A DNA stretch of 39,816 nt from a bacterium (GTDB lineage Bacteria; UBP6; UBA1177). This document shows, in pieces, positions 8,433 to 16,570 of the stretch. Position numbers and translations under genes: made by a program. Numbering within the stretch: position 1 is the stretch's first letter; each line of letters begins with the position of its first letter. The notes below the pieces were generated by a model, which worked only from the letters and a program-made list of their open reading frames with translations, ran no database searches and was not told the DNA's origin. The stretch covers positions 1-39,816 of the forward strand of contig JAGCNV010000109.1 of assembly GCA_017645765.1 (NCBI GenBank), in the 5' to 3' direction.

Positions 8433-9767
8433 ATGAAGAGATTTTTTATTGTATTTTCGTTTTTCTGTGCATTTTTTCTGGTTTCATGCGGAAGCGGCAG
8501 CTCAAAAAATGATGATGATACGGAGAAATCAGATTCGGAAGAGGGAGAAGTGGCGGCGGATGAAGATACGTCTGACATCGTTCCTGATTCAGATGATATT
8601 GATGATATTTCAGATACGTTACCGGATGATCCGGAACCGGATGATGCCGATGTCATAGAAGGTTCAGACAATGATTCCGAGCTGTCAGATCCTTGTGATC
8701 CGAATCCGTGTGCAGGTTTGCAAAATTCAACAGAAATATGCACTGTGATAGCTCAGAATCTTTATTCCTGCGGCTGTATCGGCGGATATTATTGGTGGGG
8801 AGCGGAGAAGGGCTGTATGAACAAACGATTGTCGCTTGGTAACATCTGCACAGGAAACAATAAATGTTACGATAATAAAAAGGAAATAAACTGTTCGTTG
8901 ACTGAGACCAATTTCTATGGTCAGGATGCGCAGTATGCGGAACTCGGTTCATGCTTGCCGCAGAATTTCACCGTCAAAACCCTTTCTGGACAAAATATCG
9001 TTATGGATAACAACACTGGGCTCGAGTGGCAGCAAACGCTTGACAAAGGCACCTACACTCGGGAAGAGGCGGAAAACTACTGCGACAGTCTGAATGCCTC
9101 GAATTACGCCGGATATAGCAGCGGCTGGCGTCTTCCAGCTCCGCATGAATTTCTCACGATCGTCGATAACAGCAAGTATGATCCGGCAGTTGATACGACA
9201 ATCTTTCCGGATATCCCTGCAGAGAATCCTGCCTATTTCTGGGCTTCAAAGACTTATTATGAGTTCAGTGACGCCAGATGGAGCTTTGATGCTCATTACG
9301 GTCAGATCGAGCTGAAATCCCAAAACGAGAGTTACTATGTAATGTGTGTGCATGGTGAAGAACTTCCGTCAGGGTTGTTTTCCGTTTCCGATGAGACTGA
9401 AGAAGAATCTGTCGTAACCGATTCGACAACCGGACTTGTATGGCAGAAAAACATTATAGCGGAGCCGTATAGATGGCAGGATGCGTTGTCTTATTGCGAG
9501 AATTTGGTTTATGCCGGTTTGAGTGACTGGAGACTGCCTAACAAGAACGAACTTTACTCTCTTGTAAACTTCGATATATCAATTCCTCCGTATTCCGACT
9601 TTCCGGCATCATCAGACGTGGCTTATCATTTTTTCTGGTCTTCATCAACCTCGGTGGATAAATACAATCAGGCTTTGGTCGTTTATTTCAATTATGGTTC
9701 CGGCTTCGACGGACAAAAGAGTAATACTCAGAACTATTATGTCCGTTGTGTCAGAAACGCGGACTGA
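8433..9767 (+). CDS. DUF1566 (Lcl-type) lipoprotein
   Basis: A 444-residue predicted lipoprotein. The signal peptide ends in a lipobox (LVSC-G, Cys about residue 19). An acidic linker rich in Asp, Glu and Ser follows to about residue 85, then a Cys-rich segment (DPCDPNPCAG...SCGC) and two DUF1566-like modules, each with TGLxWQ, a YCxxL helix, WRLPxxxE and a final VMCVHG or VRCVRN strand. DUF1566 is related to lectin-like and formylglycine-enzyme folds; its role here is unknown, but surface display on the outer membrane is likely. It is paralogous to the 693-residue protein at 28759-30840, sharing the GYYWWG, LGNICTG, NFYGQDAQ and FTVKTLS blocks. A GAGGTG ribosome site precedes the ATG. Confidence 0.8.
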   Translation: MKRFFIVFSFFCAFFLVSCGSGSSKNDDDTEKSDSEEGEVAADEDTSDIVPDSDDIDDISDTLPDDPEPDDADVIEGSDNDSELSDPCDPNPCAGLQNSTEICTVIAQNLYSCGCIGGYYWWGAEKGCMNKRLSLGNICTGNNKCYDNKKEINCSLTETNFYGQDAQYAELGSCLPQNFTVKTLSGQNIVMDNNTGLEWQQTLDKGTYTREEAENYCDSLNASNYAGYSSGWRLPAPHEFLTIVDNSKYDPAVDTTIFPDIPAENPAYFWASKTYYEFSDARWSFDAHYGQIELKSQNESYYVMCVHGEELPSGLFSVSDETEEESVVTDSTTGLVWQKNIIAEPYRWQDALSYCENLVYAGLSDWRLPNKNELYSLVNFDISIPPYSDFPASSDVAYHFFWSSSTSVDKYNQALVVYFNYGSGFDGQKSNTQNYYVRCVRNAD

Positions 9768-11315: not shown

Positions 11316-11966
11316 ATGCAAAAAATTCTTATAATTTTCATTGCTTTTCTACAATTTTTCTCTGTTTTTGCGGCAGACGATCCTGCCAAGAAAACCGGGC
11401 AGAATACTGAGAAGTGGAAATTTGTCGGTGAAGAGGACGGGCTGAAACTCTACGAGCGTAACCACGAAGGTTCCGATATCAAAGAGGTCAAGGCGGTCGT
11501 CACTTATCAGGGAACGATTCAGGAAGCTGTCGATATTATGTTCGACAGGCTTAAACATCCGCAGATATTCAAATATATAACATTCTCGGATGTCCTCAAA
11601 AAGAATGACAAGTGCGACTGGTCTTATAACCAGATTTCGGTACCGGTGGCTTCCAACCGCGATTATTACGTCAAATCATGCAGAGTTGACAACAAAGACG
11701 GCTCGGTCTCTGTAACCTGGGTTCCTTTCGACGATCCGAAATATCCTGTGACTGACAAATTTGTCCGCGTGGCTGACAACAAGGGGTTCTACAAATTTAC
11801 ACAGGTAGAGCCGGACAAAATAAAAGTCGATTACTACATTTACAACGATCCGGGCGGCTCTCTTCCCGTTTTTGTCAAGAACATTGCGGCAAGACAGGCC
11901 GTTAAGGATACGTTGTGGACGCTTCACAAAGAAATTATGAAGCGCCGCGCGGCATCGAAAAAATAG
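11316..11966 (+). CDS. Exported START-domain lipid-binding protein
   Basis: A 216-residue protein with an N-terminal signal peptide (MQKILIIFIAFLQFFSVFA, then ADD) and a START domain over most of the rest. Family features are WKFVGEEDGLKLYER at the start of the domain, a central SVPVASNRDYY, and DPGGSLPVFVKNIAARQAV before the long C-terminal helix. START domains bind lipids or sterols in a deep pocket. With a signal peptide it would act in the periplasm, perhaps in lipid handling. The gene begins 16 nt after the M18 stop, so it may be co-transcribed, although no strong ribosome site is visible. Confidence 0.82.
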   Translation: MQKILIIFIAFLQFFSVFAADDPAKKTGQNTEKWKFVGEEDGLKLYERNHEGSDIKEVKAVVTYQGTIQEAVDIMFDRLKHPQIFKYITFSDVLKKNDKCDWSYNQISVPVASNRDYYVKSCRVDNKDGSVSVTWVPFDDPKYPVTDKFVRVADNKGFYKFTQVEPDKIKVDYYIYNDPGGSLPVFVKNIAARQAVKDTLWTLHKEIMKRRAASKK

Positions 11967-12322: not shown

Positions 12323-14575
12323 ATGGCGGAAAAAGATAATATGTCGCTGCCGTTTTCGTTTGAAGTGGCTAAAATTTTCAGCATGGCAATCGAAGATGCA
12401 ACCGACAACAAAGACGAGTTCGTGACTCCGGAACATCTTCTGTTTCAGCTGCTTTTCAACAGGAAAGTAGTCGGACTTCTCGAACATTTTGATGTCGATG
12501 TCTCGGAAATGAGGCAGAATGTCAGGGAATATCTCGAAAAATATGTTCCCAAAAGCTCTAAAAACGGGAGAGTTGTTCCGTCCGAATACCTGAACATGTG
12601 CCTTCTCGATGCGGCGAATAATGTTTTCGGCTCACAGCGGACTCGCGTCGAAGTGACCGATCTGATCGTAGCGATTTACGATCTCGGTGACAAATCGTAT
12701 TCCTCAAGTCTGCTCAAGGCTAACAACATCAAGCGATACGACCTTCTGAGCGCGATTGCACACGGCGGATTTTCCGAAACTGAAAAGCCTGAAGAGACTG
12801 GAAATGTTGAATTAAATCCCGAAGAGGGAGAAAAATCGCCTTCAACGCTTGAACTTTTTACGGTAGATCTTACCGAAAAAGCCCGTTCCGGCGCGCTTGA
12901 TCCGATAATTGGTCGTGAAGAGATCATAGAGCGGACGATTCAGATCCTTCTCAGACGCAAAAAGTGCAATCCTGTTCACATCGGTGATCCCGGAGTCGGC
13001 AAAACGGCGATAACTGAAGGTCTGGCTCAGAGAATTGCGAGGAATGAAGTGCCTGCGCAGCTTTCAGGCTACCGAATTCTTTCGCTCAACATTTCGCGCC
13101 TTATCAGCGAATGCCGCTTTATGGGCGATTTGGAACGGACGATGAACAAACTCGTCTCTGCTTTGAAGCAGGAAGAAAAAATCATTGTTTTTATTGATGA
13201 AATTCACAATCTTGTCGGGGCGGGGAGTGCAGGAAATTCGTCGATTGATGCGGCAAACATCCTGAAACCAGTTCTTGAAGAAGGATTGATAAAATTTATC
13301 GGTGCGACTACCGCAGCAGAATACAGAAAGTTTTTTGAGAAGGATTCGGCTCTTTCGAGAAGATTCCAGAAGGTAAACGTTCCCGAGCCTTCAAAAGAAG
13401 AAACTTTCCTGATTTTAAAGAGTCTTGCTGAAAAATATGAGTCTTTTCACAAGGTTAAATACAGTGACGAGGCTCTCCGTGCGGCTGTGGAACTTTCTTC
13501 GCTTTACATTACCGACCGTTTTCTGCCGGACAAGGCGATAGATCTGATCGATGAGGCGGGAGCAGCCTGCAACATGCAGGCTAAGAAAATAAAGGTTGTA
13601 AAGCCGGAGCATATTGAAAAAGTCACCGCTTTTCTCACAGGAAAGAAGGAAACAGCTGTAAATTCTGACGGAATGAAGCAGCTCAAAGGGCTCGAGGCGG
13701 CTCTTTCAACTGAGATTTTCGGTCAGAACGAGGCAATTTCCGAAATTGTGAGAGCGATAAAAAAGAGTTATGCAGGGTTCAAAAATCCCGAAAAACCTGT
13801 TGCTTCTTTCCTTTTCGTAGGCTCGACCGGAGTAGGTAAAACGGAGCTTGCCCGCGTTTTAGCTGATAAAATGGAAATGCCGCTTATCCGCTTTGATATG
13901 AGCGAATATCAGGAAAAGCACACGGTTTCCAAACTTTTCGGCGCGCCTCCCGGATATGTCGGATATGAAGAGGGCGGACTTCTCACCGAAGCGATAAGAA
14001 AGCAGCCGACTTCGGTTCTTCTTCTTGATGAAATCGAAAAAGCCCATGCAGACATTTACAATTCACTTCTTCAGATCATGGATTATGCGACTCTGACAGA
14101 CAACGCAGGACGTAAGGCTAACTTTAAAAACGTAATAATTATAATGACTTCCAATGCCGGAAGCAAAGACGCTGCAAAAAAACAGGTAGGCTTTGAATCC
14201 CATTCGGAAAACACTTCCGCTTTCAAAGAAGCTGTAAAAAATACGTTTTCGCCTGAGTTTCTGAACAGGCTTGACCACATTGTTTACTTCTCACGCATGA
14301 CGCCTGAAATCGTTAAGAAAATAGTTAAAAAGAATGTTGAAGCCCTTGCAGAAAGGCTCGTTTCCAAAAATATTGAACTTTCAATCACCGAATCCGCTGT
14401 CGCACACTTGGCTGAACTTGGTTTCTCAAATGATTTCGGCGCAAGAGAAACGGCGAGAGTTGTCGATAAAGAGCTTGAAAATCTTCTTCTTGACGAAATT
14501 CTTTTCGGAAAATCGAAAAACGGCGGAAAAATAAAAATCGATTTCAAAAACGGAAAACTTATAACTGTTAAATAG
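12323..14575 (+). CDS. clpA: ClpA, AAA+ unfoldase of the ClpAP protease
   Basis: A 750-residue class I Clp ATPase. The Clp N-domain occupies about residues 1-150. The first AAA+ module has Walker A GDPGVGKTA and Walker B IIVFIDEIHN. The second has GSTGVGKTE and SVLLLDEIEKAH, then the sensor and arginine-finger region FSPEFLNRLDHIV. A KQVGFESH loop before that region matches the position of the ClpP-docking IGL/IGF loop, and there is no long middle domain, so this is ClpA rather than ClpB. It unfolds N-degron substrates brought by ClpS. No clpP lies in the window. Confidence 0.95.
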   Translation: MAEKDNMSLPFSFEVAKIFSMAIEDATDNKDEFVTPEHLLFQLLFNRKVVGLLEHFDVDVSEMRQNVREYLEKYVPKSSKNGRVVPSEYLNMCLLDAANNVFGSQRTRVEVTDLIVAIYDLGDKSYSSSLLKANNIKRYDLLSAIAHGGFSETEKPEETGNVELNPEEGEKSPSTLELFTVDLTEKARSGALDPIIGREEIIERTIQILLRRKKCNPVHIGDPGVGKTAITEGLAQRIARNEVPAQLSGYRILSLNISRLISECRFMGDLERTMNKLVSALKQEEKIIVFIDEIHNLVGAGSAGNSSIDAANILKPVLEEGLIKFIGATTAAEYRKFFEKDSALSRRFQKVNVPEPSKEETFLILKSLAEKYESFHKVKYSDEALRAAVELSSLYITDRFLPDKAIDLIDEAGAACNMQAKKIKVVKPEHIEKVTAFLTGKKETAVNSDGMKQLKGLEAALSTEIFGQNEAISEIVRAIKKSYAGFKNPEKPVASFLFVGSTGVGKTELARVLADKMEMPLIRFDMSEYQEKHTVSKLFGAPPGYVGYEEGGLLTEAIRKQPTSVLLLDEIEKAHADIYNSLLQIMDYATLTDNAGRKANFKNVIIIMTSNAGSKDAAKKQVGFESHSENTSAFKEAVKNTFSPEFLNRLDHIVYFSRMTPEIVKKIVKKNVEALAERLVSKNIELSITESAVAHLAELGFSNDFGARETARVVDKELENLLLDEILFGKSKNGGKIKIDFKNGKLITVK

Positions 14576-14585
14576 AGGTAACATT

Positions 14586-15281
14586 ATGAAATCATTTGCA
14601 AAAATGTTTATTCTAGCACTTTGTGCGCTTATTCTTTTCTCATGCGCTTCGGCTCCGAAAAACGAAGGACACGGAAAGGCTGATGACGGTTCGATGACTG
14701 CTGAGGAACTCAGCTACATCAACGACACAGGAAGAAGGCATCTTCTCCAGAATGATGTCGAAAAGGATAACGAGATTTTGAGAAAAGTTTCGATTCCGGC
14801 AAAACTTGGAGCAGAAGGCTACGATGTTCTTGAAAATTATATGAAAGAAGCTATCGGAACCGGAGTAGGGATCGCGGCTCCGCAAGTCGGAATAAACAGG
14901 CGTCTCATCATGGTTCAGAGATTCGACAAAGAAGGAAAACCTTTTGAATTTTATTACAACGCTGTGATTAAAGAAAAAAGAGGAGAAAAGGTTGTCGGAT
15001 GGGAAGGCTGCCTCTCGATTCCGGCAGGTTACGGACAGGTCGAAAGGTGGCAGGATATCGATGTTGAATACGATGTCATGAACGGTGATAAATTAGAACG
15101 TAAAGTCGAACGTATCCAAGGTTTTACAGCTGTCATTTTTCAACACGAAACGGATCATTTAAACGGAGTTCTATTCATCGATATAAAAACCGCTGATCCT
15201 CTGATGACTGCCGAAGAATACAAAGAAATGAGAATGAAAGAAAAAGCTGAAAAAGAAGCACAGGAAAAGAAAGACGAATAA
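14586..15281 (+). CDS. def: Peptide deformylase with a lipoprotein signal peptide
   Basis: A 231-residue protein with all three deformylase motifs: GVGIAAPQVG, EGCLSIPAG (metal Cys) and QHETDHLNG (HExDH metal and catalytic residues). Deformylases normally remove the formyl group from nascent proteins in the cytoplasm. This one begins MKSFAKMFILALCALILFSC-AS, a clear lipobox (Cys about residue 20), followed by a 35-residue linker. A good GAGGT ribosome site at 14575-14579 supports this start, and no comparable site precedes later Met codons. It is therefore predicted to be membrane-anchored outside the cytoplasm. The C-terminus is a charged Lys/Glu tail. The gene starts 10 nt after clpA and probably shares its transcript. 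Confidence 0.88.
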   Translation: MKSFAKMFILALCALILFSCASAPKNEGHGKADDGSMTAEELSYINDTGRRHLLQNDVEKDNEILRKVSIPAKLGAEGYDVLENYMKEAIGTGVGIAAPQVGINRRLIMVQRFDKEGKPFEFYYNAVIKEKRGEKVVGWEGCLSIPAGYGQVERWQDIDVEYDVMNGDKLERKVERIQGFTAVIFQHETDHLNGVLFIDIKTADPLMTAEEYKEMRMKEKAEKEAQEKKDE

Positions 15282-16012: not shown

Positions 16013-16030
16013 TAATTCCGGAGGTGAGTG

Positions 16031-16570
16031 ATGGCTGTTTACGATTTTACGGTAAAAGACAGGAAAGGTAATGATGTCCCGATGTCAAATTTCAAAGGCA
16101 AAGTGCTCCTTATCGTGAACACGGCAACGGGCTGTGGTTTTACTCCGCAGTATGAAGGGCTTGAGAAACTTTGGCAGGAATATCACGACAAAGGCTTGGA
16201 AATATTGGATTTTCCATGTGACCAATTTGGTCATCAGGCTCCAGGAACAGATGATGAGATCCATCAGTTCTGCATGGCAAGATACGCCACGAGCTTTGAC
16301 AACTTCAAAAAGATCGAAGTCAACGGCGAAAATGCTGAACCGCTCTACGAATATCTCAAAAGCCAGAGAGGTTTTGCGGGTTTTACCGGCAGAAAAGGGT
16401 GGCTGATGGGACTTTTCAGCATGATAAGAGACCGCAAATACAAAACCAGTGCCGATATCAAATGGAATTTCACAAAATTTCTCGTGAACCGTGAAGGCGA
16501 AGTCGTGGAACGTTTTGAACCGACAGTGGAACCGGCTGAAATCGCTGATAAAATCGCAGCACTGCTGTAA
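16031..16570 (+). CDS. Glutathione peroxidase family thiol peroxidase (Cys type)
   Basis: A 179-residue protein of the glutathione peroxidase family. Visible motifs are VNTATGCGFTPQYEGL with a Cys (TGT, not TGA) at the peroxidatic position, LDFPCDQFGHQAPG with the second Cys, and IKWNFTKFLVNREGEVV. Cys-type members usually use thioredoxin and reduce peroxides in the cytoplasm. GGAGG at 16020-16024 favours the ATG at 16031 over the adjacent in-frame GTG at 16028. It is the last gene of the rightward run and ends 26 nt from the convergent NapH-like gene. Confidence 0.93.
   Translation: MAVYDFTVKDRKGNDVPMSNFKGKVLLIVNTATGCGFTPQYEGLEKLWQEYHDKGLEILDFPCDQFGHQAPGTDDEIHQFCMARYATSFDNFKKIEVNGENAEPLYEYLKSQRGFAGFTGRKGWLMGLFSMIRDRKYKTSADIKWNFTKFLVNREGEVVERFEPTVEPAEIADKIAALL

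Follow-up and report, generated by a model that had tools for sequence, protein, structure and literature searches.

The gene at positions 14586 to 15281 of the window (the whole stretch of 39,816 nucleotides that was analysed, from a UBP6 bacterium) encodes a peptide deformylase that appears to be exported as a lipoprotein, in a genome that also encodes an ordinary cytoplasmic deformylase. Export and the deformylase fold are both well supported; the probable substrate we infer from the chemistry of the family. The features of the gene, with the evidence for each, are as follows.

14586..15281, + strand: gene for the predicted exported lipoprotein peptide deformylase, 231 aa (open reading frame from ATG; PF01327, 111.5 bits; orthologues)
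14574..14578, + strand: Shine-Dalgarno-like AGAGG, 7 nt 5′ of the ATG, overlapping the clpA stop codon (sequence)
14586..14642, + strand: predicted signal peptide, residues 1-19, with lipobox LFS-C (lipobox in 24/24 carriers; pN/pS <1)
14643..14645, + strand: Cys20, predicted lipidated +1 residue (orthologue alignment)
14697..14768, + strand: N-terminal extension, residues 38-61, between the signal/linker and the deformylase domain (alignments, model)
14769..15182, + strand: peptide deformylase domain, residues 62-199 (PF01327, AlphaFold2, Foldseek)
14862..14885, + strand: motif I, GVGIAAPQ, residues 93-100 (sequence)
15003..15017, + strand: motif II, EGCLS, residues 140-144, with metal ligand Cys142 (sequence)
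15141..15167, + strand: motif III, QHETDHLNG, residues 186-194, with His187, Glu188 and His191 (sequence)
15210..15275, + strand: charged C-terminal helix, residues 209-230 (AlphaFold2 model)

Residues 1-20 of the protein, MKSFAKMFILALCALILFSC, comprise an n-region containing K, a hydrophobic stretch and the lipobox L-F-S-C20, and read as a textbook signal for signal peptidase II. The initial annotation, which had proposed an exported lipoprotein with intact catalytic motifs preceded by a good ribosome site, is thus borne out by the letters themselves: the LFSC-A signal is present, motifs I to III are complete, and AGAGG stands before the ATG, with a similar site at the equivalent position in most orthologues. 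A scan for promoters and terminators returned counts close to shuffled expectation and is uninformative.

The signal is conserved across the order. An orthologue is present in 24 of its 25 genomes (G018 is without one, and the copy in G017, a fragment at a contig end, is counted among the carriers), and all 24 carriers, i.e. this genome and 23 others, keep an N-terminal lipobox, as the initial annotation had proposed to check. The Cys lies at residue 16-21 from the probable start (in L016 it is at 33 from the first in-frame ATG, and the second ATG fits the range); it is usually followed by Ala-Ser/Thr, with Ala at +2 in nearly all orthologues. Because residues outside the lipobox diverge widely among the UBP6 orthologues, its retention in every carrier exceeds what chance would give. 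In two groups of close relatives, pN/pS over codons 1-20 is 0.47 and 0.18, compared with 0.16 and 0.08 in the mature part; as both signal values are below 1, the region is translated and selected as protein, and its codons are, on this measure, under purifying selection. Of the 68 exported rows (gathered by similarity and including some duplicates), 65 have a hydrophobic N-terminal segment and 34 a lipobox; among 39 cytoplasmic and 72 viral deformylases, the segment occurs once in each set and the lipobox in neither. Three same-phylum genomes outside the order contain only deformylases that lack this signal.

An annotation error, in which translation would begin 3′ of the lipobox and the enzyme would be cytoplasmic, is in our judgement extremely improbable. 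The protein and its close relatives do carry a Met at residue 37, but this Met is missing from more distant members, and a search of the sequence for a good ribosome site serving it found none, so we rejected a start at this position; the conserved lipobox, the selection on the signal codons and the AGAGG before the annotated ATG argue against the error as well. The initial annotation had stated that export would be contradicted if the genome held no other deformylase and translation started near Met38; in fact, a second deformylase, cytoplasmic and without a signal, was found at G000:C78:39590-40081 of the same assembly (2.65 Mb, 99% complete), which likewise counts against the error.

The same genome has an Fmt match (245 bits), the lipoprotein signal peptidase LspA (PF01252, 116.7 bits) and an outer-membrane Omp85 protein (187 bits); we conclude that the bacterium formylates Met and processes lipoproteins, and that an outer membrane is probable. 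A canonical deformylase was also detected in 21 of the 24 UBP6 carriers (it was not seen in G013, G015 and G024, which are 97, 92 and 65% complete) and in all nine Bacteroidota carriers checked, so that the exported deformylase is an additional enzyme. With its export signal and a second, cytoplasmic copy beside it, the protein falls outside the definition of the canonical co-translational deformylase, which is cytoplasmic and the sole essential copy. The relatives that bear names are metagenome bins from the ruminant gut, two of which carry the label UBP6. One bin, G002, holds three lipoprotein deformylase loci on separate contigs (L035, L037 and L038; contigs C100, C25 and C39), which probably represent strain redundancy in the bin.

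The protein belongs to the deformylase family by domain, fold and motifs. Residues 62-199 match PF01327 (E 3.8e-32, 111.5 bits; curated cut-off 22.8), and the NCBIfam equivalog model TIGR00079 gives 100.9, slightly under its cut-off of 103.95, as expected for a divergent accessory copy. The AlphaFold2 model has a deformylase core with pLDDT mostly 93-98, a disordered signal and linker, two short helices in the N-terminal extension and the charged C-terminal helix (net charge −2 over residues 201-231). Its best Foldseek matches in the PDB are class I type b deformylases (6jes, E 2.2e-12, TMt 0.77), and the predicted structure therefore has the deformylase fold. Cys142 is equivalent to E. coli Cys90, and His187, Glu188 and His191 to His132, Glu133 and His136. 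The GVG.A.PQ of motif I and the EGCLS of motif II are invariant across the UBP6 orthologue alignment, and the His, Glu and His of motif III are unchanged in 60 of 60 exported rows. All three motifs are identical to the published deformylase motifs, G-hydrophobic-G-hydrophobic-AAXQ, EGCXS and QHEXDHLXG (PMC12690207).

Exported proteins differ from other deformylases around the active site: R112 and D114 are fixed, P119 is nearly so, K115 and E121 are mostly kept, and the pocket differs at G138, F180, V183 and I184. In the E. coli enzyme, G138, Y149, F180, V183 and I184 correspond to I86, R97, L125, I128 and C129; position 97 is Tyr in our protein and Phe in many UBP6 orthologues. Vibrio cholerae Def2 has Gly86, Tyr97 and Phe125 and supports growth without Def1 (PMC12690207). 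All three of these residues are found in our protein, as G138, Y149 and F180; these pocket changes are compatible with activity and predict weak actinonin binding. They also bear on a decoy function, in which the protein would bind deformylase inhibitors such as actinonin outside the cytoplasm. Accessory deformylases can give actinonin tolerance, and environmental inhibitors have been proposed (PMC12690207), but the residues at 86, 97 and 125 are those that lower actinonin binding, which makes a decoy highly improbable.

Comparison with known deformylases places the protein close to, yet apart from, several groups. The class I type b enzymes of Acinetobacter baumannii (6jes), Thermotoga maritima (1lme), Bacillus cereus (1ws0) and cyanophage S-SSM7 (3uwa) are its best matches in sequence and structure and share its fold, three motifs and metal ligands; they are short, without an export signal or N-terminal extension, whereas our protein is a predicted lipoprotein with the clade-specific R112, D114, K115, P119 and E121. 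V. cholerae Def2 and the integron deformylases are likewise accessory to a canonical copy and have the same three residues in the inhibitor/substrate pocket; unlike the exported form, however, Def2 works in the cytoplasm, as its support of growth as the only deformylase indicates. The organelle deformylases (chloroplast PDF1B, mitochondrial PDF1A, apicoplast PDF) are also among the sequence and structure matches and bear an N-terminal targeting sequence, much as the exported form bears a signal, but they are sent to compartments that make formyl-Met protein, and the bacterial envelope makes none.

The closest counterparts are exported homologues in Bacteroidota. A profile of 21 orthologues searched against 386 genomes from across bacteria gave only one match below 1e-40 outside the order, in genome G360. 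GldN is present in the family of G360 and was found in none of the control genomes, which identifies that family as Bacteroidota; a second genome, G646, came from the search of the same phylum. Follow-up searches of the phylum, and then of the respective family or order, found the exported form in 43 of 100 genomes of the G360 family and in 8 of 164 genomes of the G646 order. Those of the G646 order are lipoproteins with EGCLS (L065, L071-L077), whereas those of the G360 family mostly carry an ordinary Sec signal, e.g. MKKISFLFVFLMSLLNAQ followed by KL (L058, L066-L069, L078-L107). An outlier in the latter family, L228 (G900:C1:1680700-1682400), does have a lipobox; it is a divergent lipoprotein deformylase with LTSCGSC, DGCLS and an insertion before motif III, and in our tree it forms the earliest branch of the exported clade, on a long branch.

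The Bacteroidota forms share the N-terminal extension and the clade-specific residues with the UBP6 form. In a tree built on core columns without the signal, 60 exported proteins lie on one side of a branch (support 98/89), with 39 cytoplasmic and 30 viral deformylases on the other; by sequence, one exported clade thus spans two phyla, UBP6 and Bacteroidota. Within this set, a single origin of export is probable, or else a few origins, with later loss or transfer; because we collected sequences by their similarity to the UBP6 proteins, there could be further exported deformylases of independent origin. A viral origin was rejected, as the 30 viral deformylases fall outside the exported clade, and so was an origin from a mobile element or plasmid, as no match in plasmid records covers 80% of the protein and all plasmid matches are below 60% identity.

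Within one Bacteroidota family, motif II reads EGDLS rather than EGCLS in many members (L058:1456-2082, L066-L069, L078-L091, L093-L096, L098-L101): the metal-ligand Cys is replaced by Asp, and motif III retains its His, Glu and His. This applies to 20 of the 60 non-redundant exported rows, all of them in that family. The EGDLS branch suggests that the metal site was remodelled at least once, and we speculate that this may avoid an oxidisable Cys ligand; the loss of the Cys ligand in many members suggests that the clade as a whole is not tied to classical deformylase chemistry, which counts against the explanation that we prefer below.

It is against this background that a repurposed metallohydrolase has to be weighed, i.e. 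an enzyme that keeps the fold and cuts another amide or peptide bond in the envelope. Consistent with such a change are the clade-specific residues near the active site (R112, D114, K115, P119, E121, and G138 in the pocket) and the Asp substitution; thermolysin-type HExxH enzymes have an acidic third ligand, which the Asp of EGDLS resembles. The UBP6 proteins and the Bacteroidota lipoproteins, however, have intact metal ligands and an intact motif II, and their pocket matches that of the active V. cholerae Def2, and we regard repurposing as rather unlikely overall. Retention of all metal ligands and the catalytic Glu together with the Def2-like pocket favours genuine deformylase chemistry in the UBP6 clade; repurposing gains plausibility in those Bacteroidota members whose catalytic Cys is replaced by Asp.

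The neighbourhood of the gene is not informative about its function. At this locus the order is a gene for a START-domain protein, clpS, clpA, the deformylase gene and rsmE, all adjacent, and the initial annotation had placed the enzyme in a protein-turnover setting on account of ClpSA. That setting does not hold up: clpA lies 5′ of the deformylase gene in part of the genus only (L007, L009-L011, L015-L017, L036-L040, L045), it is absent from the upstream sequence examined in L041-L044 of the same genus, and in f2 and f3, the other two families of the order, neither ClpS-ClpA nor rsmE is near the gene; rsmE follows it in most members of family f1. The exported deformylase is without a constant partner gene, and we rejected a functional link to ClpSA because the arrangement is not conserved. 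Elsewhere in the window, a glutathione-peroxidase-like protein is encoded right after rsmE (16028-16570), a position it has in only some genus members. The START-domain protein encoded 5′ of clpS (11316-11966) looks secreted; to our knowledge, few bacterial START proteins have an export signal. A further predicted lipoprotein (FLVSC), encoded at positions 8433-9767, has a long linker rich in Asp, Glu and Ser, a Cys-rich stretch and two stretches of Lcl_C (PF07603).

Our preferred explanation, which we hold at about even confidence, is that the protein is an accessory deformylase resembling class I type b enzymes, whose place of action is the envelope and whose targets are N-formyl termini missed by the cytoplasmic enzyme. 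After secretion through Sec and lipidation at Cys20, the mature enzyme would be anchored to the envelope, its catalytic domain lying outside the cytoplasm. The cytoplasmic copy would carry out ordinary co-translational deformylation; the exported copy would most likely hydrolyse the N-formyl group of formyl-Met termini out of that enzyme's reach. Candidate substrates are inner-membrane proteins of N-out topology, signal peptides after their release and formyl peptides from neighbouring cells that have lysed. Nascent chains that bear a signal are shielded from deformylation by bound SRP, and it has been proposed that N-out membrane proteins retain fMet, being out of reach of PDF (PMC5454389); a supply of substrate for the exported copy is therefore plausible in principle. 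A more specific version is tentative: an envelope-anchored second deformylation of SRP-shielded signal peptides and N-out termini, with the change of Cys to Asp in some Bacteroidota yielding either a novel metalloenzyme or a form adapted to an oxidising compartment.

Two further considerations qualify the preferred explanation. The iron of native deformylase is sensitive to oxidation, and the enzyme may therefore depend on anoxia or a different metal to be active outside the cytoplasm. The Ala at +2 would predict sorting to the outer membrane (by the E. coli rule, which may not hold in UBP6), a location not ideal for acting on inner-membrane N-termini, and this counts against our explanation. 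Outer-membrane sorting is in line with scavenging, in which the enzyme would deformylate exogenous bacterial formyl peptides and exopeptidases would then use these as food in the protein-rich rumen; such peptides need deformylation first, as exopeptidases are blocked by the formyl group. The gut habitat of the relatives and the secreted or lipoprotein forms of the Bacteroidota carriers agree with scavenging, but peptidase or transporter genes are not consistently linked to the deformylase gene (one for an M18 aminopeptidase lies 5′ in only part of the genus). We consider scavenging unlikely; together with a changed substrate, it is the chief alternative to our explanation.

It is also conceivable, although very unlikely, that the enzyme removes formyl-peptide alarm signals and thereby spares host formyl-peptide receptors a trigger. 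The genus is host-associated, and N-formyl peptides are immune signals for which membrane proteins are a proposed source (PMC5454389); the clade, however, also occurs in many Bacteroidota genera without a shown host link, and a literature search gave no precedent.

No exported deformylase turned up in the open-access literature, which was what the search covered, and "unreported" is accordingly provisional. A 2025 survey of accessory deformylases describes no exported form and does not contain the word lipoprotein; it brings up signal peptides solely to explain how exported proteins evade deformylation (PMC12690207). The deformylase domain of our protein is already known, and what is new is its compartment and the partial remodelling of the active site.

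The usual teaching is that deformylation is confined to the cytoplasm and linked to the ribosome. The protein described here indicates that bacteria may also deformylate outside the cytoplasm, and the conservation of a predicted exported clade in two phyla implies that envelope N-formyl groups are important enough to be taken off. The fate of formyl-Met on exported N-termini thereby becomes a testable question, and the branch in which Cys has changed to Asp would serve as an experiment of nature on the metal site in an enzyme that is a drug target.
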